From positions 23,781,981 to 23,845,980 of the forward strand of contig OX393552.1 of assembly GCA_947650365.1 (NCBI GenBank): a DNA stretch of 64,000 nucleotides, in the 5' to 3' direction. A model generated the notes under the pieces. It saw nothing but the letters and a program-made list of their open reading frames with translations, was not told the origin of the DNA and made no database searches. Position 1 is the first letter of the stretch; each line of letters opens with the position of its first letter. This stretch comes from Chamaelirium japonicum. Taxonomy: Eukaryota; Streptophyta; Magnoliopsida; Liliales; Melanthiaceae. This document shows positions 9,629 through 33,627 of this stretch, piece by piece. The position numbers and the translations under genes are program-made.

Positions 9629-9825
9629 ATGAAGAAACGAAGGCAGAAGAGAGAGAAGAAGATATATGATAATGGAGAAATAAACGAGGAGAGAAGAAAT
9701 CCTGCTCCAGTCCATTAGCCACAAGTATAGGTTTGAAGTAAGAAGTAATCTAAATTCCAAAACTTCACTTCTCAATAGTATCATCTCAACGTTATTATGA
9801 TTATCATTGAAATATTTCTATAATT
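9629..9825 (+). repeat. Module M3, copy 1 (5' truncated)
   Basis: Only the 3' part of the module remains, starting in the GAAGAAACGAAGGCAGAAGA tract. The promoter region is absent. It joins the spacer directly at about 9629 and ends in the attatgattatcattgaaat segment shared by all modules with an intact 3' end. Confidence 0.75.
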
Positions 9826-12800
9826 ATTTTAATAATAGTAAACATTTATTTAATTATAAAATAATTGAAATAATTTAAATATTTTAATAATTAACTTTTA
9901 TTAAAATAATAATTTTATTTAATTATCTAGTTATTTAATAGAATTTATTATTTTATTTATTTATTAATTATTATAATATTAAATAATCATATTATGTACC
10001 TATTTAATGGTTTAAAATATTAAATAAAGAAGTAATAATTTAATTATATAATTTAATTTATTTTATTAGTTATTTCTTTAATTATTATTATTTTTTAAAT
10101 TAATTTAACTAATTTATTAAATAATAAATTGTTAAAATAATAAAATAATTAATTATTTCATATTTTATTATTTAATAAGTAATTAATGAAAATATTTCAT
10201 TAATTACCATTAATGAAATAATTATTATAATTTTTATTTAATTATTTTATGAAATAATTTATTAATTTCATTATTTCTTTAATAAAGTAATATAATAATA
10301 TAATAACTAATTCCTTATTATTTTTTTAAAAATCTATTATTTAAAAAAATATTTTATTATTTCTATATTCACATAATTCACTAATTATTTATATAATAAG
10401 TAAATAGTTATTGAATTAATATTTTATATTATTATTTAATAAAATAATTAATTTTTTGATATATTTAATTTAATTTTTTATAATTTATTTAAATAATTTG
10501 TTAATTATTTCATTACATTATTATTTAAGTTAATTATTATTTATTTAACTATAAAATTATTTAATAATTAAATTATTTTTTTGTTTAAGTACTTAATCTA
10601 TTTAATATATTTCTTTGCTAAATAAATTATAACATATTTAAATAATTAACTAATTATTTAATTATTTCAAAAAAATATTATTTAAATAATTCTTTATATA
10701 ATTATCTAAGTAATGAAATTCTAACTTTATAATTATTTCCTTAAATAATTATTCAAAAACTAATTTAAATAATAAAATAATAATCTTATTACATAATAAT
10801 TTAGTTATGTAATTATTAAATAAATTATTTTAATATTTTCAAAAAATATAATTTATTTAATTTATTATTTATTTAACTATGAAATTATTTAATAATTAAA
10901 TTATTTTTTTGTTTAAGTAAGTATTCCATTTAATATATTTCTTTACTAAAATGTTTTTAAATATTTAACTAATTAAATAAATATTCACTTATTTTGAAAA
11001 ATTATTATTGAAACTATTCTTTATATCATTATTTAATTAATGAAATTCTAATTTTATAATTATTTCAATAAATAATTATTTAATAATTTATATCAATAGT
11101 AATCTAATAATTTTATTACATAATAATTTAGGTATGTAATTATTAATTAAATTATTATATTATTTCAAAAAATTATTAATTAATATAATTTATTCTTAAA
11201 ATTATTACATAAATATTTAAAAAATATAATACATAAATTTATTTTGTTAAAATATTATATAATTATATAATGGAATTATTTTATTAGAATATAATAATAA
11301 TATAAAGAAATAATTTATTTTCTAAAATAATTAAATTATTATTTGATATCATTATTCCATAAATTATAATTAATCTAATATTTTTATTATTTACTTATTG
11401 AATAATTCGATAATGATAATTGAATTATTTCATTATTGAATTATTCAATAAGTAAATAATATAGATATTTCATTATTTATAATTTATGGAATAATGATTC
11501 AAATAATTATTTAATTATTTAATAAAATATTTTAATAATTCCATTATTTCTTAATGTTATTTATATTTTATATTAAAATAATTCAATTATACAATTATTT
11601 AATATTTAAATAAAATAATTTAAGTATTTTATTATTTAAATAGTGATGAAATAATTTAAAGTATAAATTATATTAATAAATAATTTTTGAAATTCATAAA
11701 ATAATTTAATCAATATTTACAAAAATAAATTATTATATAATACAATTTTTAGATTATCATTTAAATAAATTATTAAATAATTATTTATTTATATAACTAA
11801 AATATTATAATTTAGTTATTTAGATAATTAAATATAGAATTATTTAAATAATTAAATATTTATTCAATTATTGAGATATTTAAAAACTTAATTAGTGAAG
11901 ATATATATCAAATAGATTATTTACTTAAAAAAATCAATATTTTTATTATTAAAAAATTTCATTTTTAAATAAATAATAATTTCATTATATAATTAATTTA
12001 TTATATTAGTTATTTTTTTAATTATTACTATCTTTTTAATTAATTTAATTAGTTTATTAAATAATAAATTAGAGAAATAATAAAATAATTAATTAATTCA
12101 TTATTTTATTATTTAATATGTAATTAATGAAAATATTTAATTAATTACCATTAATAAAATAATTTTTATAATTTTTATTTAATTATATTATAAAATATTT
12201 GATTAATTTAATTATTTATTTCATAAAGTAATAAAATAATATAATAACTAATTATTTATAATTTATAATTTAATAAAATAATTTGTGAATTATTTCATTA
12301 CATAATAATTTAATTAAATTATTATTTATTTAACTATAAAATTATTTAATAATTAAATTATTTTTTTGTTTAAGTAAATAATCTATTTAATATATTACTT
12401 TACTAAATAAGTTTTGAAATATTTAAATAATTCTTTTTATAATTATCTAAATAATGAAATTAGCATTTAATAATTATTTTAATAAAATAATTTGTAAAAA
12501 ATTTATTTAATTGATAATACAATAATTTTATTATATAATAATTTAGTTATGTAATTATTAAATAAATTATTTTATTATTTGAAAAAATAATATTTTTTTA
12601 AATTATTCTTTTGCTTAAGTAAATAATCCATTTAATATATTTCTTTACTAAATAAGTTTTTAAATATTTAAATAATTGAATAATTATTCATTTATATAAA
12701 AAAATTATTATTGAAATAATTATTTATATAGTTATCTACTTAATAAAACTCTAATTTTACAGTTATATCAATAAATTATTATTTAATATTTTATTTAAAT

Positions 12801-13280
12801 AATAATCTAATAATTTTATTACATAATAATTTAGTTATGTAATTATTAATGAAATTATTTTATTATTTCAAAAAATTATTAATTAATATAATTTAATCTT
12901 TGAATTATTAATGAAATATTTAAAAAATAAAATAGTTAAATTTGTTTACTTAAATAATTTTATAGTTAAATAAATAATAATTTAAATAAAATATTATATA
13001 ATGAAATAAATAAAAAAATTTATTAAATTATGAGATATTAATTTAAATAACAAAAAAAAAATTATTTAATTAAGTAATAAAATAAGAAAATAATTTAATA
13101 ACTATTTACTTATTATTCAAATAATTAGTTAATTATTTGAATATATGAATAATAAAATATTTTTTTAAATAGCTTAATACTTTTATTAATAATTAAAGAA
13201 ATATTTATTGATTTTAATATTTAATTATTTAATTTATTTAACTATTTAATTTATTAAACTAATTAAATTAATTAAATAAA
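9826..13280. repeat. Composite AT-rich spacer P6, copy 1
   Basis: At 3.45 kb this is the longest spacer. The first part (to about 11965) is a palindrome centred at about 11423, with 11401-11415 paired to 11431-11445. A second left arm then begins without a module in between. It runs to about 12945, where it jumps to the outer end of a right arm with no centre. The left arm at 10541-10600 is repeated directly at about 10869, giving a 328-bp sub-repeat. No gene is seen. Confidence 0.8.
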
Positions 13281-13695
13281 AGGAAGTAAAGAAGGAAGAT
13301 GAGGCACACCCGAATTTTTTGCTTTAAAAAAATTTATATTTTTCTTTTAAAAAATTTAAAACATTACAACTGTTATGTGATCGTTCGATCGGATGACTAT
13401 TCACCGTCAGATCTCTCACATAGATTTGGGTTTCCTAAATAATACTTAGGCCCTAAGTAAACTTACCCTAAAAATAATATACAACCCCTTTAGGGTGGGG
13501 CATGTTTGACGGCTCTCTCTTTCTCCCATCTCACAATATGTTATCAACACGAATATATCAAGCCGAGCCAATCCGTGGCAAGAAAACGGAGAGAGAAACA
13601 AAGACAGAAGAGGGAGAAGAAGAGAGATGAGAATGGAGAAATAAACGAATAGAGAAGAAGTCCTGCCCCAGTCCATTGGCCATGGGTATAGGTTT
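13281..13695 (+). repeat. Module M4, copy 1 (3' truncated)
   Basis: Retains the GATCGTTCGATC dyad, the promoter region and the purine tract. The TATA box is changed (cctaaaaata near 13468) and the telo-box reads TTTGGGTTT. It ends at GGGTATAGGTTT and joins a palindrome left arm directly. Confidence 0.78.
13538..13630 (+). other. Possible 30-codon small ORF in M4
   Basis: Same frame as in M1, starting at ATG 13538 and ending at TGA 13630. Equivalents are at 32439-32531 and 51253-51345. An extra upstream ATG (gcatgtttgac) exists in this module, so this would not be the first start codon. Weak candidate. Confidence 0.12.
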
Positions 13696-14435
13696 AATTT
13701 ATTTCTTTACTAAATAAGTTTTTAAATATTTAAATAAATAAATAATTATTTATATAATTATCTAATTAATAAAATTCTAATTTTAAAATTATTTCAAAAC
13801 ATAGATTTTTAATAATTTATTTAAATCATAATATAATAATTTTATTATATAATAATTTAGTTATATAATTATTATTGAAATTAATTTATAATTTAAAAAA
13901 ATTATTAATTTATATAATTTATTCTTTAAATTATTACTTAAATATTTAAAAAATAAAATATTTTAATTTATTTTGTTAAAATATTATATAATTATATAAT
14001 GGAATTATATTATTATAATATAATAATAATAAAAAGATATAATTAAATTATTTAAATATTTTCTAAAATAATTAATAATTATTTGAATCATCATTTCATA
14101 AATTATAATTAATCAAATATTTGTATTATTTACTTATTGAATAATTCAATAATAATTATTGAATTATTTAATTATTGAATTATATAATAAGTAAATAATT
14201 AAAATATTTAATTAACTATAATTTATAGATAATTAAATATTAGTTAAAAAATTTAATTAACTATAATTTATAATAATAAAAAATTAACTATAATTTAATT
14301 AACTATAATTTATAATAATAAAAAATTAGTTAAAAAATTTTAATTATATAGATAATTAAATATTTCATTAATTATTTAATTTATTAATTTATTGAACTAT
14401 TTAATTTTTTAAAATAATGAAATTAATTAAATAAT
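13696..14435. repeat. AT-rich spacer P7 with short internal repeats, copy 1
   Basis: Palindrome remnant centred at about 14162. Most of the right arm is replaced by a local repeat at 14209-14340, in which AATTAACTATAATTTA occurs four times with AAAAAATTA spacers. No gene is seen. Confidence 0.78.
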
Positions 14436-14770
14436 ATGAAGTAAAGAAGTAAGATGAGGCACACCCGAATTTTTTGCTTTAAAAAATTTATATTTTTATT
14501 TAAAAAAATTTAAAACATTACAACTGTTATGAGATCGTTCGATTGGATGACTGTCCACTGTCGGAAGAAAACGAAGAGAGAAATAAAGGCAGAAGAGAGA
14601 GAAGATTAGATATGAGAATGGAAAAATAAACGAAGAGAGAAGAAATCATGCTCCAGTCCATTAGCCATGGATATACGTTTGAAGTAAAAAGTAATCTAAA
14701 TTCCAAAACGCCACTTCTCAATAGTATCATCTTAACGTTATTATGATTATCATTGAAATATTTCTATAAT
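14436..14770 (+). repeat. Module M5, copy 1 (internally deleted)
   Basis: The 5' end and 3' end of the module are present, but about 190 bases between GTCGGA (near 14560) and AGAAAACGAAG are missing. This removes the telo-box, TATA box and small-ORF start. The module begins ATGAAGTAAAG rather than AGGAAGTAAAG. Confidence 0.77.
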
Positions 14771-15195
14771 TTTTTTAATAATAGTAATTATTTATTTAAT
14801 TATAAAATATTTTAAATAATAGAAATATTTTAATAATTAACTTTTTACTAAAATAATATTTTTATTTAATTATTTAATTATCTAGTTATTTAATGAAATT
14901 AATTATTTTATTTATTTAATAATTATTATATTATTAAATAATTAAATTATGTACCTATTTAATGGTTTAAAATATTAAATAAAGAAATAATGATTTAATT
15001 ATATAATTAATTTATTTTATTAGTTATTTATTTTATTATTATTATTTTTTAAATTAATTTAATTAATTCATGAAATAATAAAATGCTGAAATAATAAAAT
15101 AATTAGTTTAAATAATTAAATATTTCTTTAATTATTTAATTATTTAATTTATTTCATTATTTAATTTAATAAACTAATTAAATTAATTAAATAAT
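14771..15195. repeat. Collapsed AT-rich spacer between M5 and M6, copy 1
   Basis: Only 425 bp. The outer part of a left arm joins the outer part of a right arm near 15100. The palindrome centre and inner arms are missing, as in the second half of P6. Confidence 0.75.
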
Positions 15196-15340
15196 AGGAA
15201 GTAAAGAAGGAAGATGAGGCACACCCAAATTTTTTGCTTTAAAAAAATTTATTTTTTTCTTTTTAAAAAATTTAAAATATTATAACTGTTATGAGATCGT
15301 TCGATCGGATGACTGTCCACCGTCGGATCCCTCCCTTAGA

Positions 15341-15392
15341 TTAGGGTTTCCCATATAATACTTAGGCCATAAGTAAGCTTACCCTATAAATA
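15341..15392 (+). promoter_or_regulatory. Telo-box plus TATA core promoter in M6
   Basis: Perfect TTAGGGTTT followed 35 bases later by TATAAATA, the same spacing as in M1. A C/T-rich patch lies about 40 bases downstream. Equivalent sites lie at +18857 in copy 2 and +37716 in copy 3. Activity is inferred. Confidence 0.5.
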
Positions 15393-15451
15393 ATATACGA
15401 CCCCTTTAGGGTGGGGCACGTTTGACGGCTCTCTTTTTCCCATCTCATAAT

Positions 15452-15544
15452 ATGTTATTAACACGAACATATCGAGCCCAATCGACCCGTCGTAAGAAAA
15501 CAGAGAGAACAACGAAGACAAAAGAGAGAGAAGAAGAGAGATGA
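15452..15544 (+). other. Possible 30-codon small ORF in M6
   Basis: ATG 15452 to TGA 15544, 30 codons, with the same start and stop positions relative to the TATA box as the other modules. Equivalents are at 34309-34401 and 53168-53260. It has several replacement differences from M1, so conservation of length is the main argument. Confidence 0.14.
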
Positions 15545-15700
15545 GAATGGTGAAATAAACAAAGAGGGAAGAAGTCCTGCTCCAGTCCATTGGCCATGGG
15601 TATAGGTTTGAAGTAAGAAGTAATCTAAATTCCAAAAATCCACTTCTCAATAGTATCATCTCAACGTTACTATGATTATCATTGTAATATTTCTATAATT

Positions 15701-17896
15701 TTTTAAATAATAGTAATCATTTAATTATTTGATTATCTAGTTATTTATTGAAATTTGTTATTTTATTTATTTATTAATTATTATATTATTAAATAATTAA
15801 ATTATGTAACTATTTAATGGTTTAAAATATTAAATAAAGTAATAATGATTTAATTATATAATTAATTTATTTTATTAGTTATTTCTTTAATTATTATTAT
15901 TTTTTCAATTAATTTTATTAATTTATTAAATAATAAATTATTGAAATAATTATTGAATTAATTTTTTATTTAATTAACTAATAAAATAATTAATTTTTGA
16001 ATGTAATTTATTTAATTTTTTATAATTTAATAAAATAATTTTTTAATTATTCTGTTACATAATAATTTATTTAAACTATTATTTATTTAACTTTTAAATT
16101 ATTTAATAATAATTTTTTTTTGTTTAAGTAAATAATCAATTTAATATATTTTATTACTAAATAAGTTTTTAAATATTTAAACTATAGACTAATTATTTAA
16201 TTAGTTAAAAAAATTATAATTTAAATAATTCTTTATATAATTATCTAAATAATGAAATTATAATTTTATAATTATTTTAATAAATAATTATTCAAAAATT
16301 TATTGAAATGATAATATAATAATTTAATTACATATTAATTTAGTTATATAATTATTGATTAAATTATTTTATATTTCAAAAAATTATAATTTAATTAAAT
16401 TAAGATTTATTGAACTATGGAATAATTGAATAATTAAATTATTTTTTTGTTTCAGTAAATAATCAATTTAATATATTTACTAACTAAATAAGTTTTTAAT
16501 TATTTAAATAATTAAATAATTATTTACTTATTTCAAAAAATTATTATTTAAATAGTTCTTTGTATAATTATCTAATTATTGAAATTCTAATTTTATAATT
16601 TTTTGAAAAAATAATTATTTAATAATTTATTAAAATAATAATATTTTAATTTTTTTATATAATAATTTATTTATGTAGTAATTAAATAAATGATTTTATT
16701 ATTTCAAAAAATTATTAATTAATATAATTTATTTTTTTAGTGATTATTAAAATATTTAATAAATAAAATACTTAAATATATTTTATAAAAATATTGTATA
16801 ATTATATAATGGAATTATTTTATTAGAATATAAACATAACATAAAGAAATAATTGAATTATTCAAATATTTTATAAAATTATTAAATAATTTTTTGAATC
16901 ATTATTCCATAAATTATAATTAATCAAATATTTTTATTATCTACTTATTGAATAATTCAATAATGATTATTGAATTATTTTAATATTGAATTATTCAATA
17001 AGTAAATAATAAAAATATTTAATTAAATATAACTTATGGAATAAGGATTCAAATAATTATTTAATTAACTTATAAAATATTTAAATAATTTTATTATTTC
17101 TTTATGTTATTAATATTTTTTCATAGAATAATTCAATTATATAATTATATAATATTTTAATCAAATAATTTAATAATTTAATTATTTTATTATGTACTTA
17201 TTAATTTAAAGTATAAATTATATAAATTAATAAGGTTTTTTGAATAATAAAATAATTTAATCAATAATTACATAACTAAATTATTATGGAATAAAATTAT
17301 TATATTATCATTTAAACAAATTATAAAATAATTATTTATTTATATAACTAAAATATTAGAGTTTAATTATTTAGATAATTAAATAAATATTATTTAAATA
17401 ATTTTTTTTAAATAATTAAATCATTAGTCAATTATTGAAATATTTAAAAACTTAATTAGTGAAGAAATATATCAAATAGATTATTTACTTAAAAAAATAT
17501 ATTTTTATTATTAAATAATTTCATTTGTTAGATAAATAATAATTTAAATAAAATATTGTATAATGAAATAAATATAAAATTTTATTAAATTATGGGATAT
17601 TAATTGAAATAACTAAAAAAAATAATTATTTAATTAAATAATAAAATAAAACAATAATTTAATAACTATTTACGTATTATTTGAATAATTAGTTAATTAT
17701 TTGAATATATAAATATTAAAATATTTTTTTAAATAGTTTAATATTTTTTTTAATAATCAAAGAAATATTTATTGATTTTAATATTTAATTAATAAATAAT
17801 TTCATTATATAAATAATTAAATATTTCTTTAATTATTTAATTATATAATTTTTTTAACTATTTAATTTATTAAACTAATTAAATTAATTAAATAAT
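15701..17896. repeat. AT-rich palindromic spacer P8, copy 1
   Basis: One of the most complete palindromes at about 2.2 kb, centred at about 16973. Reading the right arm backwards from M7 as reverse complement reproduces the left arm's landmarks in order: a tcaaataattaactaatta block, then TTTAAGTAAATAATC, then ACATAATAATTTAGTTATG, then the AATTATATAATGGAATTATT block. The left arm also holds a direct repeat of about 327 bp (TGTTTAAGTA at 16121 and TGTTTCAGTA at 16448). No gene is seen. Confidence 0.87.
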
Positions 17897-18048
17897 AGAA
17901 AGTAAAGATGGAAGATGAGGCAAACCCAAATTTTTTTCTTTAAAAAAATATATTTTTCTTTAAAAAAATTTAAAATATTATAACTGTTATGGGATCATTC
18001 GATCGGATGACTGTCCACCGTCGGATCCCTCTCTTAGATTAGGGTTTC

Positions 18049-18090
18049 CCATATAATACTAAGGCCCTAAGTAAGCTTACCCTATAAATA
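18049..18090 (+). promoter_or_regulatory. Telo-box plus TATA core promoter in M7
   Basis: TTAGGGTTT and TATAAATA in the usual order, with a pyrimidine-rich stretch at about 18127-18145. Equivalent sites are at about 36907-36948 in copy 2 and 55766-55807 in copy 3. Activity is inferred. Confidence 0.48.
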
Positions 18091-18151
18091 ATATACGACT
18101 CCTTTAGGGTGGGGTATGTTTGACGGCTCTCTCATTCTCCCATCTCATAAT

Positions 18152-18244
18152 ATGTTATTAATACGAACTTATCGAGCCCAGTCGACCCGTCGCAAGAAAG
18201 CGGAGAGAGAAACGAAGACAAAAGAGACAGAAGAAGAAAGATGA
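18152..18244 (+). other. Possible 30-codon small ORF in M7
   Basis: ATG 18152 to TGA 18244, the same 30-codon frame. Equivalents are at 37010-37102 and 55869-55961. An upstream ATG (gtatgtttgac) is present. Weak candidate. Confidence 0.13.
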
Positions 18245-18390
18245 GAATGAAGAAATAAATGAAGAGAGAAAAAGTCATGCTCCAATCCATTGGCCATAGG
18301 TCTGAAGTAAGAAGTAATCTAAATTCCAAATCTCCACTTCTTAATAGTATTATCTCAACGTTATTATGATTATCATTGCAATATTTCTAT

Positions 18391-20862
18391 AATTTTTTTA
18401 ATAATAGTAATCGTTTATTTAATTATAAAATAAATTAACTAATTGAAATTTTTTAATATTTAACTTTTTATTAAAATAATAATTTTATTTAATTATTTAA
18501 TTATCTAGTTATTTAATGAAATTTATTATATATTTCATTTATTAATTATTATATTATTAAATAATTAAATTATTTAACTATTTAATGGTTTAAAATATGA
18601 AATAAAGAAATAATGATTTTATTATATAATTAATTTATTTTATTATTTATTTCTTTACTTATTATTATTTTTTAAAAGTATTTTATTAATTAATGAAATA
18701 ATAAATATTTAAAATAATAAAATAATTAATTATTTTATTATTCAATAAGTAATTAATGAAAATATTTAATTAATTATGTTTAATGAAATAATTATTAATT
18801 ATTAATTATAAATTATAAATTTTATTATTTTATAAAATATTTTATTAATTTAATTATTTATTAAATAAAGTAATAAAATAATATATTAATATAATAAATG
18901 ATTATTTATTATTTTAAAAAATAGATTATTTTAAAAAATATTTTATTATTTATATGATTAAATAATTAACTAATTATTTAAATAATAAGTAAATAGTTAT
19001 TGAATTAATTTTTTATGTTATTACTTCATGAAATAATTGATTTTTTGATGTATTTTATTTAATTTTTTATAATTTAATTAAATAATTTGTTATTTACTTC
19101 ATTAGATAATAATTTATTTAAATTTTTATTTATTTAACCATAAAATTAATTAATAATTAAATTATTTCTTATTTAAGTAAATAATCTATTTAATATATTT
19201 CTTTATAAAATTAGTTTTTAAATATTTAAATAATAGACTAATCTATTTAACTAAATTTTTTAAAATAATTTATTTATATATCAAATAGATTATTTACTTA
19301 AAAAATAAATATTTTTATTATTAAATAATTTCATAGGTAAATAAAAAATAAATTACAAAAAATATTTTATAATTAAATAAATATAAAATTTTATTAAATT
19401 ATGAGATATTAATTAAAATAACTGAAAAAAATAATTATTCAATTAAGTAATAAAATAAAACAATAATTTAATAATAATTTACTTATAATTTAAATAGATA
19501 GTTAATTATTTGAATATATAAATAATAAAATATTTTTTTAAAAAGCTTAATATTTTTTTTTATAATCAAATAAATAGTTATATAACTATTAATAATTTTA
19601 AAATAAATTTAGTTATAGAATTATTAATTAATTTAGTTAGATAATTACTTATTTGAAAAAATTATTATTTAAACAATTCTTTATATCATTATTTAATTAA
19701 AAAAAATTAATTTGATAATTATTTCAATAAAGAATTACTTAATAAATTATTTCAATAATAATTTAATAAGTTTATTATATTATAATTTAGTTATGTAATT
19801 ATTAATTAAATTATTGTATTATTTTAAAAAATTAATAAATAATATAATTTATTCTTAAAATTATTAATTAAATATTTTAAAAATAAAATACATAAATTTA
19901 TTTTGTTAAAATATTATATAATTATATAATGGAATTATTTTATTAGAATATAATAATAATATAAAGAAATAATAAAATTATTCAAATATTTTCTAAAATA
20001 ATTAAATATTATTTGATATTATTATTCTATAAATTATAATTAATCTAATATTTTAATTATTTACTTATGGAATAATTCAATAATGACAATTGAATTGTTT
20101 CATTATTGAATTATTCAATAACTAAATCATAAAAATATTTAATTAATTATAATTTATGGAATAATGATTCAAATAAATATTTAATAATTTTGAAAAATAT
20201 TTAAATAATTTCATTATTTCTTTATATTATTAATATTTTATAATAAAATAATTCATTTATATAATTATATAATATTTTAATCAAATAATTAAAGTATTTT
20301 ATTATTTAAATATTAACTTAATAATATAAAGTATAAATTATATTAATAAATAATTTTTGAAATTAATAAAATAATTTAATCAATAATTATATAACTAAAT
20401 TATTATATAATAAAATTAGTGAAAATATATAGATTATTTACTTAAAAAAATTAATATGTTTATTATTAAATAATATCATAGTTAAATAATTAATAATTTG
20501 AATAAATTATTATATAATTTATTTAATATAAAATATTATGAAATTATAAGATATTAATTGAAATAACTAAAAATAATATTTATTTAATTAAGTAATCAAA
20601 TAAAATAATAATGTAATATATATTTATTTATTATTTAAATAATTAGTTAATATTTGAAATATATGAATATGAAAATATTTCTTCAGTTAGATTTATAATT
20701 TTTTAATAATTAAATAAATATTTATTTATTTTAATATTTAATTAATAAATTATTAGTTTAAATTATTTAATTATATAGATAATTAAATATTTCATTAATT
20801 ATTTAAATTTTTAATTTATTTAACTATTTAATTTATTAAACTAATTAAATTAATTAAATAAT
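18391..20862. repeat. AT-rich palindromic spacer P1 (full length), unit 1/2 junction
   Basis: Complete P1 at about 2.47 kb, between M7 and M1, so module plus palindrome measures 2966 bp here. The centre is at about 20092 with the same nested dyad as at 1382. No gene is seen. Confidence 0.87.
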
Positions 20863-21370
20863 AGGAAGTAAAGAAGGAAGATGAGGCACACCCGAATTTT
20901 TGGCTTTAAAAAAATATATATTATTCTTTAAAGAAATTTAAAACATTACAAGTTTTATGAGATCGTTCGATCGGATGACTGTCCACCGTCGGATCTCTCC
21001 CATAGATTAGGGTTTCCCATATTATACTTAGGCCCTAAGTAAGCTTACTCTATAAATAATATACGACCCTTTAGGGTGTGGTACGTTTGACGGCTCTTTT
21101 TTTCTTTCATCTCAGAATATGTTATCAACACGAATATATCGAGTCCAAACGACCCATCGCAAGGAAACAGAAAGAGAAACGAAGATAGAAGAGAGAGAAG
21201 AAGAGAGATGAGAATGGAGAAATAAACAAAGAGAGAAGAAGTCCTGCTCCAGTCTATTGGCCACGGGTATAGGTTTGAAGTAAGAAGTAATCTAAATTCT
21301 AAAACTCCACTTCTCAATAGTATCATCTCAATGTTATTATGATTATCATTGTAATGTTTCTATAATTTTT
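20863..21370 (+). repeat. Promoter-bearing module M1, copy 2
   Basis: Essentially identical to 2153-2660, with telo-box, TATA box and small ORF (21119-21211) all kept. Confidence 0.8.
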
Positions 21371-22530
21371 TTAACAATATTAATCGTTTATTTACTTATA
21401 AAATAATTTAAATAATTAAAAAATTTTAATAATTAAGTTTTTATTAAAATAATTATTTTATTTAATTATTTAATTTTTTAATTATCTAGTTATTTAATGA
21501 AATTTATTATTTTATTTATTTATTAAAATTATTATTTCAAAAAATTATTCATTAATATAATTTACTCTTTCAATTATTAATTAAATATTTAAAAATAAAA
21601 TACTTAAATTTATTTAGTTAAAATATTATATAATTATATATTGGAATTATTTTATTCGAATAAAATAATAACATAAAGATATAATTTAATTATTCAAATA
21701 TTTTATTAAATAATTTAATAATTATTTGAATTATTATTCCATAAATTATAATTAATCCAATATTTTTATTATTTACTTATTAAATAATTCAATAATGATT
21801 ATTGAATTATTTTATTATTGAATTATTCAATAAGTAAATAATAAAAATATTTGATTAATTATAATTTATAGAATAATGATTCAAATAATTATTTAATTAT
21901 TGAATCAATAATTTATTCAAAAAAATTATTCGATTATCATTTAAATAAATTATTAAATTATTATTTATTTTTATAACTAAAATATTAGAATTTAATTATT
22001 TAGATAATGAAATAAAGAATTATTTAAATAATTAATTATTTAGTCATTTATTAAAATATTTAAAAACTTAATTAGTAAAGAAATATATCAAATAGATTAT
22101 TTACTTAAAATAATAAATATTTTCATTAGTAAATAATTTTATAGTAAAATAAGTAATAATTTAAATAAAATATTATATAATAAAATAAATAAAATTTATT
22201 AAATTATGAGATATTAATTGAAATAAGTTAAACTATTAATTATTTAATTAAGTAATAAAATAAGACAATAATTTAATAACTATTTACTTATTATTTAAAT
22301 AATTAGTTAATTATTTGAAAATATGAATTATAAAATATTTTTTAAATTGCTTAATATTTTTTTTAATAATCATTAAAATATTTATTGATTTTAATATTTA
22401 AATAATAAATAATTAGTATAAATAATTTAATTATATAGATAATTAAATATTTCTTTAATTATTTAATTATTTAATTATTTTATTTATATAACTATTTAAT
22501 TTATAAAACTAATTAAATTAATAATATAAT
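21371..22530. repeat. AT-rich palindromic spacer P2, copy 2
   Basis: Centre at about 21805. The right core half reads gaattattcaataag, which pairs better with the left half than the version in copies 1 and 4 (gaatttctcaataag). Confidence 0.8.
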
Positions 22531-22984
22531 AGGAAGTAAATAAGGAAGATGAGGCACACCCGAATTTTTTGCTTTAAAAAAACTTATATTTTTCTGTAAA
22601 AAAGTTTAAAACATTACAACTATTATGAGATCGTTTGATCGGATGATTGTTCACCGTCGGATCTCTCCCATAGATTAGGATTTCCCATATAATACTTAGG
22701 CCCTTAGTAAGCTTAGCCTATAAATAATATACGACCCCTTTAGGGTGGGGTACGTTTGACGGCTCTCTCTTTCTCCCATCTCATAATATGTTATCAACAC
22801 GAATATATCAAGCCCAGCTAATCCGTCGCAAGAAAACGAAGAGAGAAACGAAAACAGAAGAGAGAGAAGAAGAGAGATGAGAATGGAAAAATAAATGAAG
22901 AGAGAAGAAATCCTACCCCAGTCCATTGGCCACGGGTATAGGTTTGAAATAAGAAGTAATCTAAATTTCAAAACTCCACTTTTT
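22531..22984 (+). repeat. Promoter-bearing module M2, copy 2 (3' truncated)
   Basis: Same truncation point as copy 1. Carries the variants CGAATTTTTT, ACGACCCC, TATCAAGCCC and CCTACCCC, shared with copy 3 but not with copies 1 and 4. Open small frame at 22788-22880. Confidence 0.8.
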
Positions 22985-23570
22985 ATTAGAATGTAAACAT
23001 AACATAAAGAAATAATTGAATTATTCAAATATTTTATAAAATTATTAAATAATTTTTTGAATCATTATTCCATAAATTATAATTAATCAAATATTTTTAT
23101 TATCTACTTATTGAATAATTCAATAATGATTATTGAATTATTTTTTTATTGAATTATTCAATAATTAAATTATAAAAATATTTAATTAAATATAATTTAT
23201 GGAATAAGGATTCAAATAATTATTTAATTAACTTATAAAATATTTAAATAATTTTATTATTTCTTTATGTTATTAATATTTTTTCATAGAATAATTCAAT
23301 TATATAATTATATAATATTTTTAATCAAATAATTTAATTATTTAATTATTTTATTATTTACTTAATAATTTAAAGTATAAATTATATAAATTAATAAGTT
23401 TTTTACAATAATAAAATAATTTAATCAATAATTACATAACTAAATTATTACGTAATAAAATTATTATATTATCATTTAAACAAATTATTAAATAATTATT
23501 ATGTAATAAAAACTAAGTCTGGAATTATTAAACTATTAAATAATTATTAAATTATAAATTATTATGTAAT
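22985..23570. repeat. AT-rich palindromic spacer P3, copy 2
   Basis: Centre at about 23136. The duplicated satellite edge is present but the AT tract between the two edges is shorter than in copy 1. Confidence 0.8.
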
Positions 23571-23922
23571 AAAAACTAACTCTGGAATGCACACTCCGAA
23601 GCGTGGCGCACCGAAGACCGGCCAAAATTCGCCCGAAAAACTAAGTCAAAAACGCGCACCCCGAAGCATGGTACATTGAAGTCCGACCAAAATTCGCCCG
23701 AAAAACTAAGTCTAGAACGCTCACCCCGAAGCGTGGTGCACCGAAGACCGGCCTTGCTCGAAATACTAAGTTTGGAAGGCGCAGCCCGAAGCGTGGCGCA
23801 CCAAAGACTGGCCGAAATTCACCCGAAAAACTAAGTCTGGAATGCGACCCCAAAGCGTGGCGCACCGAAGACCGACCGAAATTCGCTTGAAAAACTCAGT
23901 CTGGAACACGCATCCCGAAGCT
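23571..23922 (+). repeat. 65-bp satellite island A, copy 2
   Basis: Same 5.4 monomers as 4871-5222. Confidence 0.93.
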
Positions 23923-24835
23923 AAAATTTTAATTTGATAATTATTTCAATAAAGAATTATTTAATAATTTATTTCAATAATAATCTAATAAGTTTATTAT
24001 ATAATAATTTAGGTATTTAATTATTAATTAAATTATTATATTATTTCAAAAAATTAATAAATAATATAATTTATTCTTAAAATTATTAATTAAATATTTT
24101 AAAAATAAAATACTTAAATTTATTTTGTTAAAATATTATATAATTATATAATGGAATTATTTTATTAGAATATAATAATAACATAAAGAAATAATAGAAT
24201 TATTCAAATATTTTATTAAATAATTAAATAATTATTTGAATCATTATTCCATAAATTATAATTAATCCAATAATTTTATTATTTACTTATTGAATAATTC
24301 AATAATGATTATTGAATTATTTTATTATTGAATTATTAAATAATAAATAATAAAAATATTTAATTAATTATAATTTATGGAATAATGATTTAAATAATAA
24401 TTTAAATATTATATAAAATATTTAAATAATTTTATTAATTCTATATTTTATTAATATTTTTTAATAAAATAATTCAATTATATAATTATATAATATTTTC
24501 ATCAAATAATTTAAGTATTTTATTACTTCAATATTTAAGTAATAATTTAAAGTATAAATTATATTAATTAATAATTTTTTAAAATAATAAAATAATTGAA
24601 TAAATAATTATATGACTAGATTATTATGTAATAAAATTATTAGATTATCATTAAAATAAATTATTAAATAATTATTTATTTATATAACTAAAATATTAGA
24701 ATTTAATTATTAAGATAATTAAATAAAGAATTATTTAAATAATAATTTTTTGAAATAATTAAATAGTTAGTCAATTATTGAAATATTTAAAAATTTAATT
24801 AGTGAATAAATATATCAAATAGATTATTTATATAA
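23923..24835. repeat. AT-rich palindromic spacer P4, copy 2
   Basis: Centre at about 24315. Unlike P4 in copies 1, 3 and 4, it has an extra 8 bases (AATTAAAT) near 24225 and TTAATTAATTATAA near 24362. Both are the states found in P5, which suggests a patch copied from P5. Confidence 0.85.
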
Positions 24836-27289
24836 GACCGATCGAAATTAGATTGAAAAACTAAGTCATAAATGCGCACCCTGAAGCGTGGCGCACCGAA
24901 GACCGACCTTAATTCGCACAAAAAACTAAGTCTGGAGTGCGATCCCAGAAGCGTGGCGCACCGAGGACCGGCCAAAATTCTCCCGAAAAACTAAGTCTGG
25001 AATGTGCACCCCAAAGCGTGGCGTACCAAGGACATGCAAAAATTCGCTCGAAAAACTAAGTCTGGAACGAGCACCCCGAAGCGTGGCGCATCGACGATCG
25101 GCCGAAATTCGCCCAAAAAACTAAGTCTGGAACATGCACCCCAAAGCATGGTGCACCGAAAACCGGTCGAAAATTCGTACGAAAAACGAAGTCTGTAATG
25201 CGCACCCCGAAGCGTGGTTCACCAAAGACCGATCGAAATTCATCCAAAAAACTAAGTTAGGAACGCGCACCCTGAAGAGTGGCACACTAAAGACCTGCCG
25301 AAATTCGACAAAAAAACTAAGTCTGGAATGCGCACCCTGAAGCGTAGTGCACCGAAAACCGACCGAAATTCGCTCGAAAAGCAAACTCTGGAACGTGCAC
25401 ACCGAAGCGTGGCGCACCGAAGACAGATCGAAGTTCACCCAAAAAACTAAGTCTGGAATACGCGTCCTGAAGCGTGGCGCACCGAAGACCATCCAAAATT
25501 CGTCAGAAAAACTAAGTCTGCAATGCGCACCCCGAAGCGTGGCACAACGAAGACCGGCCGAAATTTGCCCGAAATGATAAGTCTAGAACGCGCACCATGA
25601 AGAGTGGCGCACCGAAGAACGACCGAAATTCGCTCGAAAATCTAAGTCTGTAATGCGCATCCCGAAGCATGGTGCACCGAAAACTAGCCAAAATTCGGTA
25701 AAGAAACAAAGTCTAGAACGCGCACCCCAAAGCGTGGTGTAGCGAAAACCGACCAAAATTCGCACGAAAAACTAAGTCTGGAACGTGCATGATGAAGCGT
25801 GGCGCACTGTAGACCGATCGAAATTCTCCCGAAAAACTAAGTCTCGAACACGCACCCCGAAGCGTGGTGCACCGAAGACCGGCCAAAATTTATCCAGAAA
25901 ACTAAGTCTGGAATGTGCACCCCAAAGCATGGCGCACAGAAGACCGGCCAAAATTTGCCCGGAAAACTAAGTCTGGAACGTGCACCCCGATGCATGGCTC
26001 ACCGAGGACCGACCAAAATTCGTCCGAAAAACTAAGTTAGGAACACGCACCCCGAAGAGTGGTGCACCGAAGACTGGTCGAAATTTACCCAAAAAACTAA
26101 GTCTGGAACGCACACCTCGAAGCGTGGCGCACCGAAGACCGACCAAAATTCGATCGAAATACTAAGTCTGGAATGCGCACCCCAAAGCGTGGTGCACCCA
26201 AAACTGGCTGAAATTCACCCGAATAACTAAGTCTGGAATGCACACACCAAAGCATGGCACATCGAAGATCGGCCGAAATTCACTTAAAAAACTATGTCTA
26301 GAATGCACATCCTGAAGCGTGGAGCACCGAAGACCGACCGAAATTTGCCCAAAAAACTAAGTCTAGAGTGCGCACCCCGAAGCATGACGCACAGAGGATC
26401 GGGCGAAATTCGCCCAAAAAAATAAATCTGGAACGTGCACCCTGAAGCGTGGCGTACCAAGGACCGGCCGAAATTTGGCAGAAAAACTAAGTCTGGAACT
26501 CGCACCCTGAAGCGTGGAGCAGTGAAGACCGATCGAAATTCACCCGAAAAACTAAGTCTTGAATGCGCACGCCAAAGCGTGGTGCACCGAAGACCGGCAG
26601 AAATTTGCCCGAAAAACTTAATCTGGAATGCGCACCCCGAAGCATGGCGCACCGAAGACAAGCCAAAATTCGCCCGAAAAATTAAGTCTGGAACGCGCAC
26701 CCCGAAGAGTGCCGGACCGAAGACCGACCGAAATTTACCTGAAAAACTAAGTTTGGAACGCGCACGTCAAAGCATGGCGCACCGAAGACCGATCGAAATT
26801 CGTGGGGAAAACTAAGTCTGGAACGTGCACCCCGAAGCATGGCGCACCGAAGACTAACCAAAATTCACCCGAAAAACTGAGTCTGGAATGCGCACCCCGA
26901 TGTATGGCGCACCGACGATCAGCCAAAATTTGATCGAAAAACTAAGTCTGGAATGCACACTCCGAAGCGTGGCGCACCGAAGATCGGCCAAAATTCGCCC
27001 GAAAAAACTAAGTCAAAAACGCGCACCCCGAAGCATGGTGCATTGAAGTCCGACCAAAATTCGCCCGAAAAACTAAGTCTAGAATGCGCACCCCGAAGCG
27101 TGGTGCACCGAAGACCGGCCTTGCTCGAAATACTAAGTTTGGAATGCGCAGCCCGAAGCGTGGCGCACCAAAGACTGACCGAAATTCACCCGAAAAACTA
27201 AGTCTGGAATACGACCCCAAAGCGTGGCGCACCGAAGACCAGCCGAAATTCGCTTGAAAAACTCAGTCTGGAACACGTATCCCGAAGCT
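24836..27289 (+). repeat. 65-bp satellite island B, copy 2 (about 38 monomers)
   Basis: 2454 bp. Includes the monomer at about 25425-25489 that is absent from copies 1 and 4, and two 3' monomers absent from copy 1. Confidence 0.96.
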
Positions 27290-28529
27290 AAAATTTTAAT
27301 TTTATAATTATTTCAATAAAGAATTATTTAATAATTTATTTCAATAATAATCTAATAAGTTTATTATATAATAATTTAGGTATTTAATTATTAATTAAAT
27401 TATTATATTATTTCAAAAAATTAATAAATAATATAATTTATTCTTAAAATTATTAATTAAATATTTTAAAAATAAAATAATTAAATTTATTTTGTTAAAA
27501 TATTATATAATTATATAATGGAATTATTTTATTAGAATATAATAATAACATAAAGAAATAATAGAATTATTCAAATATTTTATTAAATAATTAAATAATT
27601 ATTTGAATCATTATTCCATAAATTATAATTAATCCAATAATTTTATTATTTACTTATTGAATAATTCAATAATGATTATTGAATTATTTTATTATTGAAT
27701 TATTAAATAAGTAAATAATAAAAATATTTAATTAATTATAATTTATGGAATAATGATTTAAATAATAATTTAATTATTATCTAAAATATTTAAATAATTT
27801 TATTATTTCTATATTTTATTAATATTTTTTAATAAAATAATACAATTATATAATTATATAATATTTTCATCAAATAATTTAAGTATTTTATTACTTCAAT
27901 ATTTAAGTAATAATTTAAAGTATAAATTATATTAATTAATAATTTTTTAAAATAATAAAATAATTGAATAAATAATTACATGACTAAATTATTATGTAAT
28001 AAAATTATTAGATTATCATTAAAATAAATTATTAAATAATTATTTATTTATATAACTAAAATATTAGAATTTAATTATTAAGATAATTAAATAAAGAATT
28101 ATTTAAATAATAATTTTTTGAAATAATTAAATAGTTAGTCAATTATTGAAATATTTAAAAATTTAATTAGTGAATAAATATATCAAATAGATTATTTATA
28201 TAAAAAAATAAATATTTTCATTATTAAATAAATTTATAGTTAAATAAATAATAATTTAAATAAAATATTGTATAATGAAATAAATATAAAATTTTATAAA
28301 ATTATGAGATATTAATTTAAATAACTTAAAAAATAATTATTTAATTCAGTAATAAAATAAAACAATAATTTAATAACTATTACTTATTATTTAAATAATT
28401 AATTAATTATTTGAATATATGGAAAATAAAAATAAAATTTAAATAGCTTAATATTTTTTTTAATAATCAAAAAAATATTTATTGATTTTTATATTTAAAT
28501 AATAAATAATTAGTTTAAATAATTTAATT
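27290..28529. repeat. AT-rich palindromic spacer P5, copy 2
   Basis: Centre at about 27682; matches 8389-9628. Confidence 0.83.
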
Positions 28530-28726
28530 ATGAAGAAACGAAGGCAGAAGAGAGAGAAGAAGATATATGATAATGGAGAAATAAACGAGGAGAGAAGAAA
28601 TCCTGCTCCAGTCCATTAGCCACAAGTATAGGTTTGAAGTAAGAAGTAATCTAAATTCCAAAACTTCACTTCTCAATAGTATCATCTCAACGTTATTATG
28701 ATTATCATTGAAATATTTCTATAATT
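28530..28726 (+). repeat. Module M3, copy 2 (5' truncated)
   Basis: Same 5' break as copy 1; no promoter. Confidence 0.75.
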
Positions 28727-31700
28727 ATTTTAATAATAGTAAACATTTATTTAATTATAAAATAATTGAAATAATTGAAATATTTTAATAATTAACTTTT
28801 ATTAAAATAATAATTTTATTTAATTATCTAGTTATTTAATAGAATTTATTATTTTAATTATTTATTAATTATTATAATATTAAATAATCATATTATGTAC
28901 CTATTTAATGGTTTAAAATATTAAATAAAGAAGTAATAATTTAATTATATAATTTAATTTATTTTATTAGTTATTTCTTTAATTATTATTATTTTTTAAA
29001 TTAATTTAACTAATTTATTAAATAATAAATTGTTAAAATAATAAAATAATTAATTATTTCATATTTTATTATTTAATAAGTAATTAATGAAAATATTTCA
29101 TTAATTATTATTAATGAAATAATTATTATAATTTTTATTTAATTATTTTATGAAATAATTTATTAATTTCATTATTTCTTTAATAAAGTAATATAATAAT
29201 ATAATAACTAATTCCTTATTATTTTTTAAAAAATCTATTATTTAAAAAAATATTTTATTATTTCTATATTCACATAATTCACTAATTATTTATATAATAA
29301 GTAAATAGTTATTGAATTAATATTTTATATTATTATTTAATAAAATAATTAATTTTTTGATATATTTAATTTAATTTTTTATAATTTATTTAAATAATTT
29401 GTTAATTATTTCATTACATTATTATTTAAGTTAATTATTATTTATTTAACTATAAAATTATTTAATAATTAAATTATTTTTTTGTTTAAGTACTTAATCT
29501 ATTTAATATATTTCTTTGCTAAATAAATTATAACATATTTAAATAATTAACTAATTATTTAATTATTTCAAAAAAATATTATTTAAATAATTCTTTATAT
29601 AATTATCTAAGTAATGAAATTCTAACTTTATAATTATTTCCTTAAATAATTATTCAAAAACTAATTTAAATAATAAAATAATAATCTTATTACATAATAA
29701 TTTAGTTATGTAATTATTAAATAAATTATTTTAATATTTTCAAAAAATATAATTTATTTAAATTATTATTTATTTAACTATGAAATTATTTAATAATTAA
29801 ATTATTTTTTTGTTTAAGTAAGTATTCCATTTAATATATTTCTTTACTAAAATGTTTTTAAATATTTAACTAATTAAATAAATATTCACTTATTTTGAAA
29901 AATTATTATTGAAACTATTCTTTATATCATTATTTAATTAATGAAATTCTAATTTTATAATTATTTCAATAAATAATTATTTAATAATTTATATCAATAG
30001 TAATCTAATAATTTTATTACATAATAATTTAGGTATGTAATTATTAATTAAATTATTATATTATTTCAAAAAATTATTAATTAATATAATTTATTCTTAA
30101 AATTATTACATAAATATTTAAAAAATATAATACATAAATTTATTTTGTTAAAATATTATATAATTATATAATGGAATTATTTTATTAGAATATAATAATA
30201 ATATAAAGAAATAATTTATTTTCTAAAATAATTAAATTATTATTTGATATCATTATTCCATAAATTATAATTAATCTAATATTTTTATTATTTACTTATT
30301 GAATAATTCGATAATGATAATTGAATTATTTCATTATTGAATTATTCAATAAGTAAATAATATAGATATTTCATTATTTATAATTTATGGAATAATGATT
30401 CAAATAATTATTTAATTATTTAATAAAATATTTTAATAATTCCATTATTTCTTAATGTTATTTATATTTTATATTAAAATAATTCAATTATACAATTATT
30501 TAATATTTTAATAAAATAATTTAAGTATTTTATTATTTAAATAGTGATGAAATAATTTAAAGTATAAATTATATTAATAAATAATTTTTGAAATTCATAA
30601 AATAATTTAATCAATAATTACAAAAATAAATTATTATATAATACAATTTTTAGATTATCATTTAAATAAATTATTAAATAATTATTTATTTATATAACTA
30701 AAATATTATAATTTAGTTATTTAGATAATTAAATATAGAATTATTTAAATAATTAAATATTTATTCAATTATTGAGATATTTAAAAACTTAATTAGTGAA
30801 GATATATATCAAATAGATTATTTACTTTAAAAAATCAATATTTTTATTATTAAAAAATTTCATTTTTAAATAAATAATAATTTCATTATATAATTAATTT
30901 ATTATATTAGTTATTTTTTTAATTATTACTATCTTTTTAATTAATTTAATTAGTTTATTAAATAATAAATTAGAGAAATAATAAAATAATTAATTAATTC
31001 ATTATTTTATTATTTAATATGTAATTAATGAAAATATTTAATTAATTACCATTAATAAAATAATTTTTATAATTTTTATTTAATTATATTATAAAATATT
31101 TGATTAATTTAATTATTTATTTCATAAAGTAATAAAATAATATAATAACTAATTATTTATAATTTATAATTTAATAAAATAATTTGTGAATTATTTCATT
31201 ACATAATAATTTAATTAAATTATTATTTATTTAACTATAAAATTATTTAATAATTAAATTATTTTTTTGTTTAAGTAAATAATCTATTTAATATATTACT
31301 TTACTAAATAAGTTTTGAAATATTTAAATAATTCTTTTTATAATTATCTAAATAATGAAATTAGTATTTAATAATTATTTTAATAAAATAATTTGTAAAA
31401 AATTTATTTAATTGATAATACAATAATTTTATTATATAATAATTTAGTTATGTAATTATTAAATAAATTATTTTATTATTTGAAAAAATAATATTTTTTT
31501 AAATTATTCTTTTGCTTAAGTAAATAATCCATTTAATATATTTCTTTACTAAATAAGTTTTTAAATATTTAAATAATTGAATAATTATTCATTTATATAA
31601 AAAAATTATTATTGAAATAATTATTTATATAGTTATCTACTTAATAAAACTCTAATTTTACAGTTATTTCAATAAATTATTATTTAATATTTTATTTAAA

Positions 31701-32181
31701 TAATAATCTAATAATTTTATTATATAATAATTTAGTTATGTAATTATTAATGAAATTATTTTATTATTTCAAAAAATTATTAATTAATATAATTTAATCT
31801 TTGAATTATTAATGAAATATTTAAAAAATAAAATAGTTAAATTTGTTTACTTAAATAATTTTATAGTTAAATAAATAATAATTTAAATAAAATATTATAT
31901 AATGAAATAAATAAAAAAATTTATTAAATTATGAGATATTAATTTAAATAACAAAAAAAAAATTATTTAATTAAGTAATAAAATAAGAAAATAATTTAAT
32001 AACTATTTACTTATTATTCAAATAATTAGTTAATTATTTGAATATATGAATAATAAAATATTTTTTTAAATAGCTTAATACTTTTATTAATAATTAAAGA
32101 AATATTTATTGATTTTAATATTTAATTATTTAATTTATTTAACTATTTAATTTATTAAACTAATTAAATTAATTAAATAAA
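28727..32181. repeat. Composite AT-rich spacer P6, copy 2
   Basis: Palindrome centre at about 30324, followed from about 30867 by a second left arm that lacks its module and its centre, as in copy 1. Confidence 0.8.
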
Positions 32182-32596
32182 AGGAAGTAAAGAAGGAAGA
32201 TGAGGCACACCCGAATTTTTTGCTTTAAAAAAATTTATATTTTTCTTTTAAAAAATTTAAAACATTACAACTGTTATGTGATCGTTCGATCGGATGACTA
32301 TTCACCGTCAGATCTCTCACATAGATTTGGGTTTCCTAAATAATACTTAGGCCCTAAGTAAACTTACCCTAAAAATAATATACAACCCCTTTAGGGTGGG
32401 GCATGTTTGACGGCTCTCTCTTTCTCCCATCTCACAATATGTTATCAACACGAATATATCAAGCTGAGCCAATCCGTTGCAAGAAAACGGAGAGAGAAAC
32501 AAAGACAGAAGAGGGAGAAGAAGAGAGATGAGAATGGAGAAATAAACGAATAGAGAAGAAGTCCTGCCCCAGTCCATTGGCCATGGGTATAGGTTT
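32182..32596 (+). repeat. Module M4, copy 2 (3' truncated)
   Basis: Matches 13281-13695 with a few private substitutions (GCTGAGCC, CCGTTGC). Open small frame at 32439-32531. Confidence 0.78.
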
Positions 32597-33292
32597 AATT
32601 TATTTCTTTACTAAATAAGTTTTTAAATATTTAAATAATTAAATAATTATTTATATAATTATCTAATTAATAAAATTCTAATTTTAAAATTATTTCAAAA
32701 TAATTAAATAATTTAGTTATATAATTATTATTGAAATTAATTTATAATTTAAAAAAATTATTAATTTATATAATTTATTCTTTAAATTATTACTTAAATA
32801 TTTAAAAAATAAAATATTTTAATTTATTTTGTTAAAATATTATATAATTATATAATGGAATTATATTATTATAATATAATAATAATAAAAAGATATAATT
32901 AAATTATTTAAATATTTTCTAAAATAATTAAATAATTATTTGAATCATCATTTCATAAATTATAATTAATCAAATATTTGTATTATTTACTTATTGAATA
33001 ATTCAATAATAATTATTGAATTATTTAATTATTGAATTATATAATAAGTAAATAATTAAAATATTTAATTAACTATAATTTATAGATAATTAAATATTAG
33101 TTAAAAAATTTAATTAACTATAATTTATAATAATAAAAAATTAACTATAATTTAATTAACTATAATTTATAATAATAAAAAATTAGTTAAAAAATTTTAA
33201 TTATATAGATAATTAAATATTTCATTAATTATTTAATTTATTAATTTATTGAACTATTTAATTTTTTAAAATAATGAAATTAATTAAATAAT
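32597..33292. repeat. AT-rich spacer P7, copy 2
   Basis: Centre at about 33019. A net 44-bp deletion near 32697 removed the catagatttttaataa segment kept in copies 1 and 3. Confidence 0.78.
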
Positions 33293-33627
33293 ATGAAGTA
33301 AAGAAGTAAGATGAGGCACACCCGAATTTTTTGCTTTAAAAAATTTATATTTTTCTTTAAAAAAATTTAAAACATTACAACTGTTATGAGATCGTTCGAT
33401 TGGATGACTGTCCACTGTCGGAAGAAAACGAAAAGAGAAATAAAGGCAGAAGAGAGAGAAGATTAGATATGAGAATGGAAAAATAAACGAAGAGAGAAGA
33501 AATCATGCTCCAGTCCATTAGCCATGGATATACGTTTGAAGTAAAAAGTAATCTAAATTCCAAAACGCCACTTCTCAATAGTATCATCTTAACGTTATTA
33601 TGATTATCATTGAAATATTTCTATAAT
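33293..33627 (+). repeat. Module M5, copy 2 (internally deleted)
   Basis: Same promoter-removing internal deletion as copy 1. Confidence 0.77.

Follow-up and report, generated by a model that had tools for sequence, protein, structure and literature searches.

Imperfect AT-rich palindromes in a probably retroelement-derived macrosatellite of Chamaelirium japonicum

In higher-order repeats of the alpha-satellite type, diverged monomers are fixed in a larger repeated unit. The locus that we describe here has diverged monomers in a larger unit in common with them, and differs from them in that its monomers are kilobase-long, mixed in kind and palindrome-bearing. Satellites of Lathyrus sativus derived from tandem repeats of LTR retrotransposons, as presented in the part of the source used here (PMC7004042), likewise place retroelement-related sequence in long arrays in particular chromosome regions. 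The seed of those satellites is a set of short tandem repeats inside the element, whereas our locus combines a module resembling the 5' side of an element with a palindromic AT-rich spacer, in units of 18.86 kb. Another close system is the foldback transposon Tetris of Drosophila virilis with its TIR-220 satellite, for which the consulted section of PMC4079207 also ties an inverted-repeat structure to satellite formation. In Tetris the subrepeats of the terminal inverted repeats (TIRs) are arrayed, whereas here whole module-plus-palindrome monomers are arrayed and element ends were not found.

The AT-rich spacers of the locus had been predicted to resemble palindromic AT-rich repeats (PATRRs). 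The portion of PMC4940405 considered here describes PATRRs as several hundred bp long, more than 90% AT, nearly perfect, free of a spacer and of little mutual homology; they break at the centre, and symmetric alleles are more active. Like the human PATRR11/22 of that source, our spacers are more than 90% AT, symmetric and hundreds of bp long. Unlike the nearly perfect PATRR11/22, their arms carry large indels and agree, with gaps left out, at 0.80-0.96 within 100 bp of the axis and at 0.72-0.89 further out, and these gap-free values are inflated (shuffles average 0.76-0.79), with gap-counting and arm-versus-arm scores added beside them. Also unlike PATRRs as that source presents them, with little homology between copies, the 13 palindromes sampled here are all homologous. 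Because the arms are not near-perfect and the copies are homologous, the spacers are by definition not PATRRs; what stands of the predicted resemblance is the AT content above 90% and the general symmetry. Among the matches listed by a literature search there was no title on a plant macrosatellite of AT-rich palindromes, which does not prove absence. The structure is best seen as a real, unusual form of transposable-element-derived satellite DNA, a macrosatellite unit with eight large AT-rich palindromes and with relatives on many chromosomes, whose sampled copies all come from one ancestor.

Palindromy of the AT-rich spacers

The window, which is the whole stretch of 64,000 nucleotides that was analysed, covers positions 23,781,981-23,845,980 on the 94.9-Mb contig C4 of a 1.52-Gb genome in 3253 contigs, of which C1-C12 were taken as pseudochromosomes. 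In this genome, a profile of copia-type reverse transcriptase gave 26,664 first-look candidates, of which 150 were scored. The window is made of units of 18.86 kb, in which AT-rich spacers (P1 to P8) alternate with modules that measure about 0.5 kb, have 36% GC and share one strand, some of them being truncated. Each unit also contains two GC-rich blocks of a 65-bp satellite (Table 1). The search for tRNA genes found none in the window, nor did any Rfam family reach its gathering score there, and the stop-to-stop ORFs above the cut-off of 110 aa numbered 14, with lengths of 121-160 aa.

Table 1 Coordinates of spacers, modules, satellite blocks and one complete unit in the window.
Feature	Position	Strand	Remarks
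P8 spacer	15705..17882	.	~92% AT, axis 16973; right arm to ~650 bp, left arm to ~980 bp with 327-bp duplication
P8 core hairpin, 140 nt	16903..17042	.	-37.8 kcal/mol as single-stranded DNA, z -12.4
P1 spacer	18401..20848	.	axis 20093; further copies 1383, 38951, 57811
P2 spacer	21374..22516	.	axis 21805; palindromy only ~100 bp per arm
P3 spacer	22993..23572	.	axis 23136; left arm shortened to 144 bp
P4 spacer	23935..24840	.	axis ~24314.5
P5 spacer	27296..28529	.	axis 27682; near-duplicate of P4
P6 spacer	9832..13266	.	axis 11423; longest arms, 1592 and 1843 bp
P7 spacer	13704..14421	.	axis 14162; weakest palindrome, z 3.6 vs dinucleotide shuffles
Reference module	17883..18400	+	~0.5 kb, 36% GC, TATA-like CCCTATAAATA, GA-rich tail; kin to 5' side of dispersed retroelement-like sequence
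Module	15182..15704	+	90% identity to reference module
Module	20849..21373	+	87% identity to reference module
Module, 3'-truncated	22517..22992	+	
Module, 3'-truncated	13267..13687	+	
Module with internal deletion	14422..14777	+	
Module, 3' fragment only	9633..9831	+	
Short GC-rich block (52%)	23573..23934	.	site of unit 1's short 65-bp array
Long GC-rich (51%) 65-bp satellite block	24841..27295	.	same block at 6127-8387, 34.8 copies by TRF
Complete higher-order unit, 18,858 bp, P1 axis to P1 axis	20093..38950	+	99.0% identical to next unit

When P8 was compared with its own reverse complement by blastn, positions 16094-17840 aligned at 75% identity over 1795 columns. Off-register AT-rich inverted pairs also align in blastn, at about 66% identity and with very low E-values; a blastn inverted match alone was therefore rejected as proof of a palindrome, and shuffle and Markov controls were used. 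The reverse-complement self-score of each of the eight spacers exceeded all 100 of its dinucleotide shuffles, with z values from 3.6 (P7) to 34.2 (P5), including 32.9 for P8 and 16.4 for P1. Against 100 order-4 Markov texts modelled on the spacers, six spacers reached z values of 7.2-18.2, P2 reached 3.9 and P7 reached 2.1, the self-score of P7 being surpassed by the best of the 100 texts. The AT-rich spacers are imperfect palindromes, and the original prediction, which had called them imperfect inverted repeats and proposed the comparison with dinucleotide shuffles, agrees with this outcome for all eight.

The eight centres per unit with one common core, also part of that prediction, were located at 1383, 3095, 4426, 5607, 8781, 11423, 14162 and 16973, with 1.2-3.2 kb between neighbouring axes within the unit and the series restarting at 20093. 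The seven other cores are 88-97% identical to the P8 core by blastn, and the arms are related too. In most of the spacers analysed, the inverted match is not confined to the central 60 bases. With the innermost 100 nt removed, the arms still scored far above 100 shuffles in P8 (z 24.7), P1 (16.9), P6 (23.1), P4 (33.7) and P5 (32.2), whereas P2 showed no palindromy above shuffles more than 100 nt from its axis (z 1.4), and P7 was palindromic near its core only (z 1.9 beyond 30 nt and 0.7 beyond 100 nt). This outer-arm test covered every spacer except P3, whose left arm is 144 nt long. A scan for centres over 14501-33500 over-scored the GC-rich blocks and was set aside. There are further inverted matches off the eight axes, one of them inside P1 (18415-20083, centre about 19249, 72% identity).

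With gaps counted, the collinear arms of P8 pair at 0.76-0.85 out to 600 nt, compared with 0.63-0.66 in shuffles, and then fall to background; the collinear arms of P6 likewise pair at 0.75-0.87, and P1 is collinear to 300 nt. Read in this collinear way, the outer arms would be lost beyond 600 nt, a reading that we rejected since a shift-tolerant comparison finds their continuation after large indels. In this comparison, which covered P8, P1 and P6 with 60 shuffles each, the right arm of P8 at 300-650 pairs with its left arm at 627-980, at a shift of 327-330 (z 23.1 and 11.7), the right arm of P1 at 300-650 pairs with its left arm at 901-1211 (z 7.9 and 11.1), and the right arm of P6 at 1500-1844 pairs with its left arm at 837-1172 (z 18.7 and 13.7). 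Past 650, the right arm of P8 gives a weak inverted match (z 4.5-4.7). The arms of P8 and P1, broken by large indels, match to 0.65 kb on the right and to 1.0-1.2 kb on the left, and the reach of 0.8-1.1 kb that had been predicted for both is attained by the left arms with indels allowed. A direct duplication of 327 bp (83%) is present in the left arms of P8 (16062-16731) and P6 (10489-11194). The length of the P8 duplication equals the shift of its outer inverted match.

Higher-order units, array and dispersal

Over 18.9 kb, units u2 and u3 show 99.0% identity. Unit u1 is about 96% identical to u2 and u3 by blastn, in which its 65-bp block is out of register, and 99.5% identical in gap-free columns. 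Within a unit, the modules are 84-90% identical to the reference module. This is satellite DNA with higher-order repeats, in which neighbouring units are more alike than the monomers within a unit.

The array on C4 extends over about 450 kb, from a stretch of 65-bp satellite near 23.637 Mb (locus L033) to a gap of 500 N at about 24.091 Mb (locus L034). Among the matches listed, 12 of 20 intervals between C4 modules measure 17-19 kb, with a range of 14-34 kb, and because this spacing varies, it points to unequal exchange. Left of the array, the GC-rich satellite of 65 bp extends over at least 9 kb (L033:1-9220), and it also occurs within the units (window 6127-8387). Inserted in this 65-bp array at L033:4267-4612 is an inverted-repeat element with ends like GGGATGGCAA / TTGCCATCCC, which in our view resembles a hAT-type MITE.

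On C63 the same array is found from about 1.360 Mb to the contig end at 1.641 Mb. It begins beside another short-unit satellite and keeps the plus orientation for roughly 7 kb; of the module copies further in, those listed are in minus orientation. The adjoining satellite is made of units of about 23 bp (AATGAATTAGAATGGATCGTACG; L035:1-2385), with a flip of orientation near 2055. The C4 array halts at its 500-N gap (L034:8237-8736, about 24.0912 Mb), C63 ends within the same array in compatible orientation, and C63 may be the missing neighbour across the gap.

Beyond these two contigs, a 27-mer of the module has 10,353 exact occurrences genome-wide, compared with 0 for the reversed pattern used as control. 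Related palindromes were found on 12 other contigs, and smaller, diverged copies of the array on C37, C48 and C223. With the diverged C37 copy as query, the best 40 matches placed the core on C15, C1, C3, C7, C10, C2, C59 and C361, at 94-99% identity in direct and 82-84% in inverted sense, and the module was present on seven of these eight contigs. Stretches of at least 9 kb on C7, C1 and C10 agree with one another at 94.5-97.5%, and all include a palindrome of 1.7-1.8 kb with 75% identity. Two subsampling patterns, with 14 and 36 hits, placed the family on nine of the contigs C1-C12 and on many contigs outside this set.

One variant of the module, identical over the 80 letters compared, is found on the plus strand at C5:400676, C6:400080 and C7:424751, where the left contig end is 0.40-0.43 Mb away, and on the minus strand at C7:85459026, with 0.41 Mb left to the right end of the contig. 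Further copies of this variant are on C32 and on C5, there 9.7 Mb from the right end. Its position about 0.4 Mb from four contig ends, on the opposite strand at the right end, suggests exchange between subtelomeres; since it is found both near ends and inland, some blocks lie near chromosome ends and others are internal. We abandoned the idea of a centromere, as C1, C3, C4, C5 and C7 have sites at several positions; some sites lie near the ends of C5, C6 and C7. Locus L062, some 0.4 Mb inside the left end of C5, holds dense, scrambled module fragments in both orientations with little AT-rich spacer.

Ancestry of the arms and origin of the module

For the ancestry of the arms, we used a tree of 13 palindromes from six contigs, in which all 13 left arms fall into a single clade with a support of 0.997. 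These were 13 of 59 arm pairs; the remaining 46 comprised further copies and close relatives of the same palindromes, the near-duplicates P3 and P5, and weak matches of 73-77%. Outside the window, the left and right labels rest on the better-matching strand of a 180-bp core, a choice that the palindromes of the window do not need. Since the left arms are all in one clade, left and right were therefore separated once, before these palindromes were copied. By this tree, the 13 sampled palindromes descend from one ancestor that was copied many times.

The two arms of the same palindrome have an identity of 0.850, compared with 0.841 between different palindromes, and 1.8% of permutations reach the observed value in the set of 13. 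For the palindromes of the window alone, the corresponding shares are 5.7-7.6% for the outer arms and 86-88% near the axis, where arm identity is 0.894 within the same palindrome and 0.900 between different ones. We read these comparisons as pointing to little arm-to-arm repair, with at most rare exchange, and to no clear compensatory evolution. The locus provides a natural set of related palindromes with measurable divergence, in which arm identity can be tested against breakage, switches, copy number and silencing.

The GC content of the spacers is 7.2% over one unit and about 5-9% in 500-bp windows lying wholly in spacers. Mutations were counted as singleton changes across the three aligned units, and the majority base served as the ancestral state. 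Per site, GC>AT changes were 18 times as frequent as AT>GC changes in the spacers (28 and 20 changes), 6.6 times as frequent in the modules (17 and 5) and 5.3 times in the blocks of 65-bp satellite (11 and 2). The rates in the spacers predict a GC content of 5%, compared with 7% observed, and mutation bias therefore suffices for the extreme AT content. Many AT-rich palindromes together need not be fragile sites, and mutation bias alone can account for their composition. The changes per site between units are alike in modules (0.0076) and spacers (0.0074), so that recent selection on the modules is not seen by this weak test.

For the origin of the module, we read two isolated relatives, which lie on C1 at 42.14 and 46.06 Mb. 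Five modules match at 72-81% identity (E 6e-27 to 3e-36), with the matched part running from about 100 to at most 380 of the module, and the reversed reference module, as control, reached a best E of 0.16 against the second locus. Both relatives lack AT-rich arms in the sequence read. Downstream of the 46.06-Mb relative there is a broken reading frame, of which a 54-aa piece has at least 150 matches, many in open frames of up to 371 aa; the protein of this piece looks like a plant copia gag. The short broken pieces downstream of the isolated module gave no Pfam match, and no pair of flanking LTRs was seen around the retroelement-like sequence. Among the 41 matches of the first isolated copy, one of which is the query itself, four sit 1.6-2.1 kb upstream of matches of the 54-aa piece on the same strand; one of these four is the piece's own locus, another has an identical piece and two are on C2. 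The connection to a retroelement is thus indirect; judged by these matches, the module is retroelement-related and probably an LTR or leader. Beside an isolated module copy, L064:760-1654 contains nested inverted repeats with long TA runs, which are MITE-like.

Competing explanations and rearrangement

We consider the locus to be a retroelement-derived complex satellite (macrosatellite) carrying decaying palindromes, with a probability of roughly 0.63. Its monomer would consist of a retroelement-related module of about 0.5 kb followed by an imperfectly palindromic AT-rich spacer. This monomer would have been duplicated head to tail, truncated in part and joined to the 65-bp satellite; the result would then have been fixed as the 18.86-kb higher-order unit and amplified over hundreds of kb by unequal exchange or segmental duplication, and the family would have spread as blocks over many chromosomes. 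The palindrome would have arisen once, before the copies spread, and its arms would have drifted apart since, with mutual repair at most rare. We infer amplification by unequal exchange, a retroelement origin of the module and palindromes without present function. This explanation leaves the origin of the palindrome itself unexplained.

Alternatively, the monomer could be a transposon of the foldback type, tandemly arrayed, in which the module is flanked by terminal inverted repeats of about 1 kb and each palindrome is the junction of two elements. This is the main rival, although we regard it as unlikely. It agrees with the position of the module between inverted arms in a fixed head-to-tail order, both in the window and at locus L059, and with a palindrome older than its dispersal, and Tetris of Drosophila virilis, whose TIR repeats seeded a satellite, would be its nearest model (PMC4079207). 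Against it, no isolated element with ends or a target-site duplication was found, and the two isolated relatives that we read are the ones without AT-rich arms. We consider it highly improbable that the array serves as a source of hairpin RNA, in which TATA-like modules would drive transcription through the palindromes and give double-stranded RNA, small RNAs and silencing of the blocks. A TATA-like word is indeed present in the modules, their sequence is similar to the 5' side of a retroelement, inverted arms lie downstream of most of them, and the GC>AT bias is as expected of methylated DNA; however, the stems show no clear co-evolution, and such a bias is common in plant heterochromatin anyway. 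An assembly artefact, of the palindromes or of the array, is barely credible: the array does end at a gap on C4 and at the contig end on C63, but palindromes of this kind, with arms diverged to a similar degree, are present on several separate contigs, and inverted false joins would yield identical arms rather than diverged ones.

The spacers could also be PATRR-like fragile sites that extrude as cruciforms, are broken at the axis and cause the array to rearrange, which we hold to be improbable. Besides the AT content and the strong symmetry near the axis, folding speaks for it. As single-stranded DNA, the 280-nt core of P8 folds at -80.1 kcal/mol, compared with -26.7 +/- 3.1 for shuffles, six 140-nt cores reach z values of -7.9 to -14.0 (200 shuffles each), and a 1200-nt stretch of P8 folds mostly to one long hairpin, in a single fold run without shuffles at that length. 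In addition, the two readable switches of array orientation, on C63 and C48, are both inside palindrome spacers; this matches the prediction of a role in rearrangement, but, as spacer sequence accounts for the greater part of the unit, two such switches prove little. The arms are too diverged for the PATRR definition, and in yeast, according to the part of PMC10164571 drawn on here, arm divergence suppresses rearrangement in double-stranded DNA, with up to 25% tolerated in long single-stranded DNA. Breakage at the axis also fits poorly with the edges of arms and insertions within the unit, which lie 144-1843 bp from the axes, and with 11 partial copies of P8 (identity 85% or more), whose inner ends are 75-846 bp away from the axis; one 77% match ends at 44 bp, and these copy ends are weak evidence, as alignment ends are imprecise in such AT-rich DNA.

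A further reading, which we likewise hold to be improbable, is that the palindromic cores take an active part in the array: in single-stranded DNA at replication forks they would fold back and trigger template switching, which would flip and expand the higher-order units. If true, this would be a self-amplifying satellite that has its own palindrome as amplification signal and uses it in blocks on many chromosomes.

The switch on C63 lies at a palindrome with its axis near L035:8892 (region 8540-9407, about 1.367 Mb). Out to +1000 on the right side of the axis, the sequence corresponds to the reversed left arm of P1 (0.96-0.99); on the left side, beyond -350, it is the plus-sense sequence that lies left of P4 (0.98). 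Over the inner 330 nt on the left the two candidates match equally well (0.864), which narrows the position of the switch no further than to the interval from about -350 to the axis. On C48, the start of a truncated module in reversed orientation is 439 bp to the right of a plus-sense axis.
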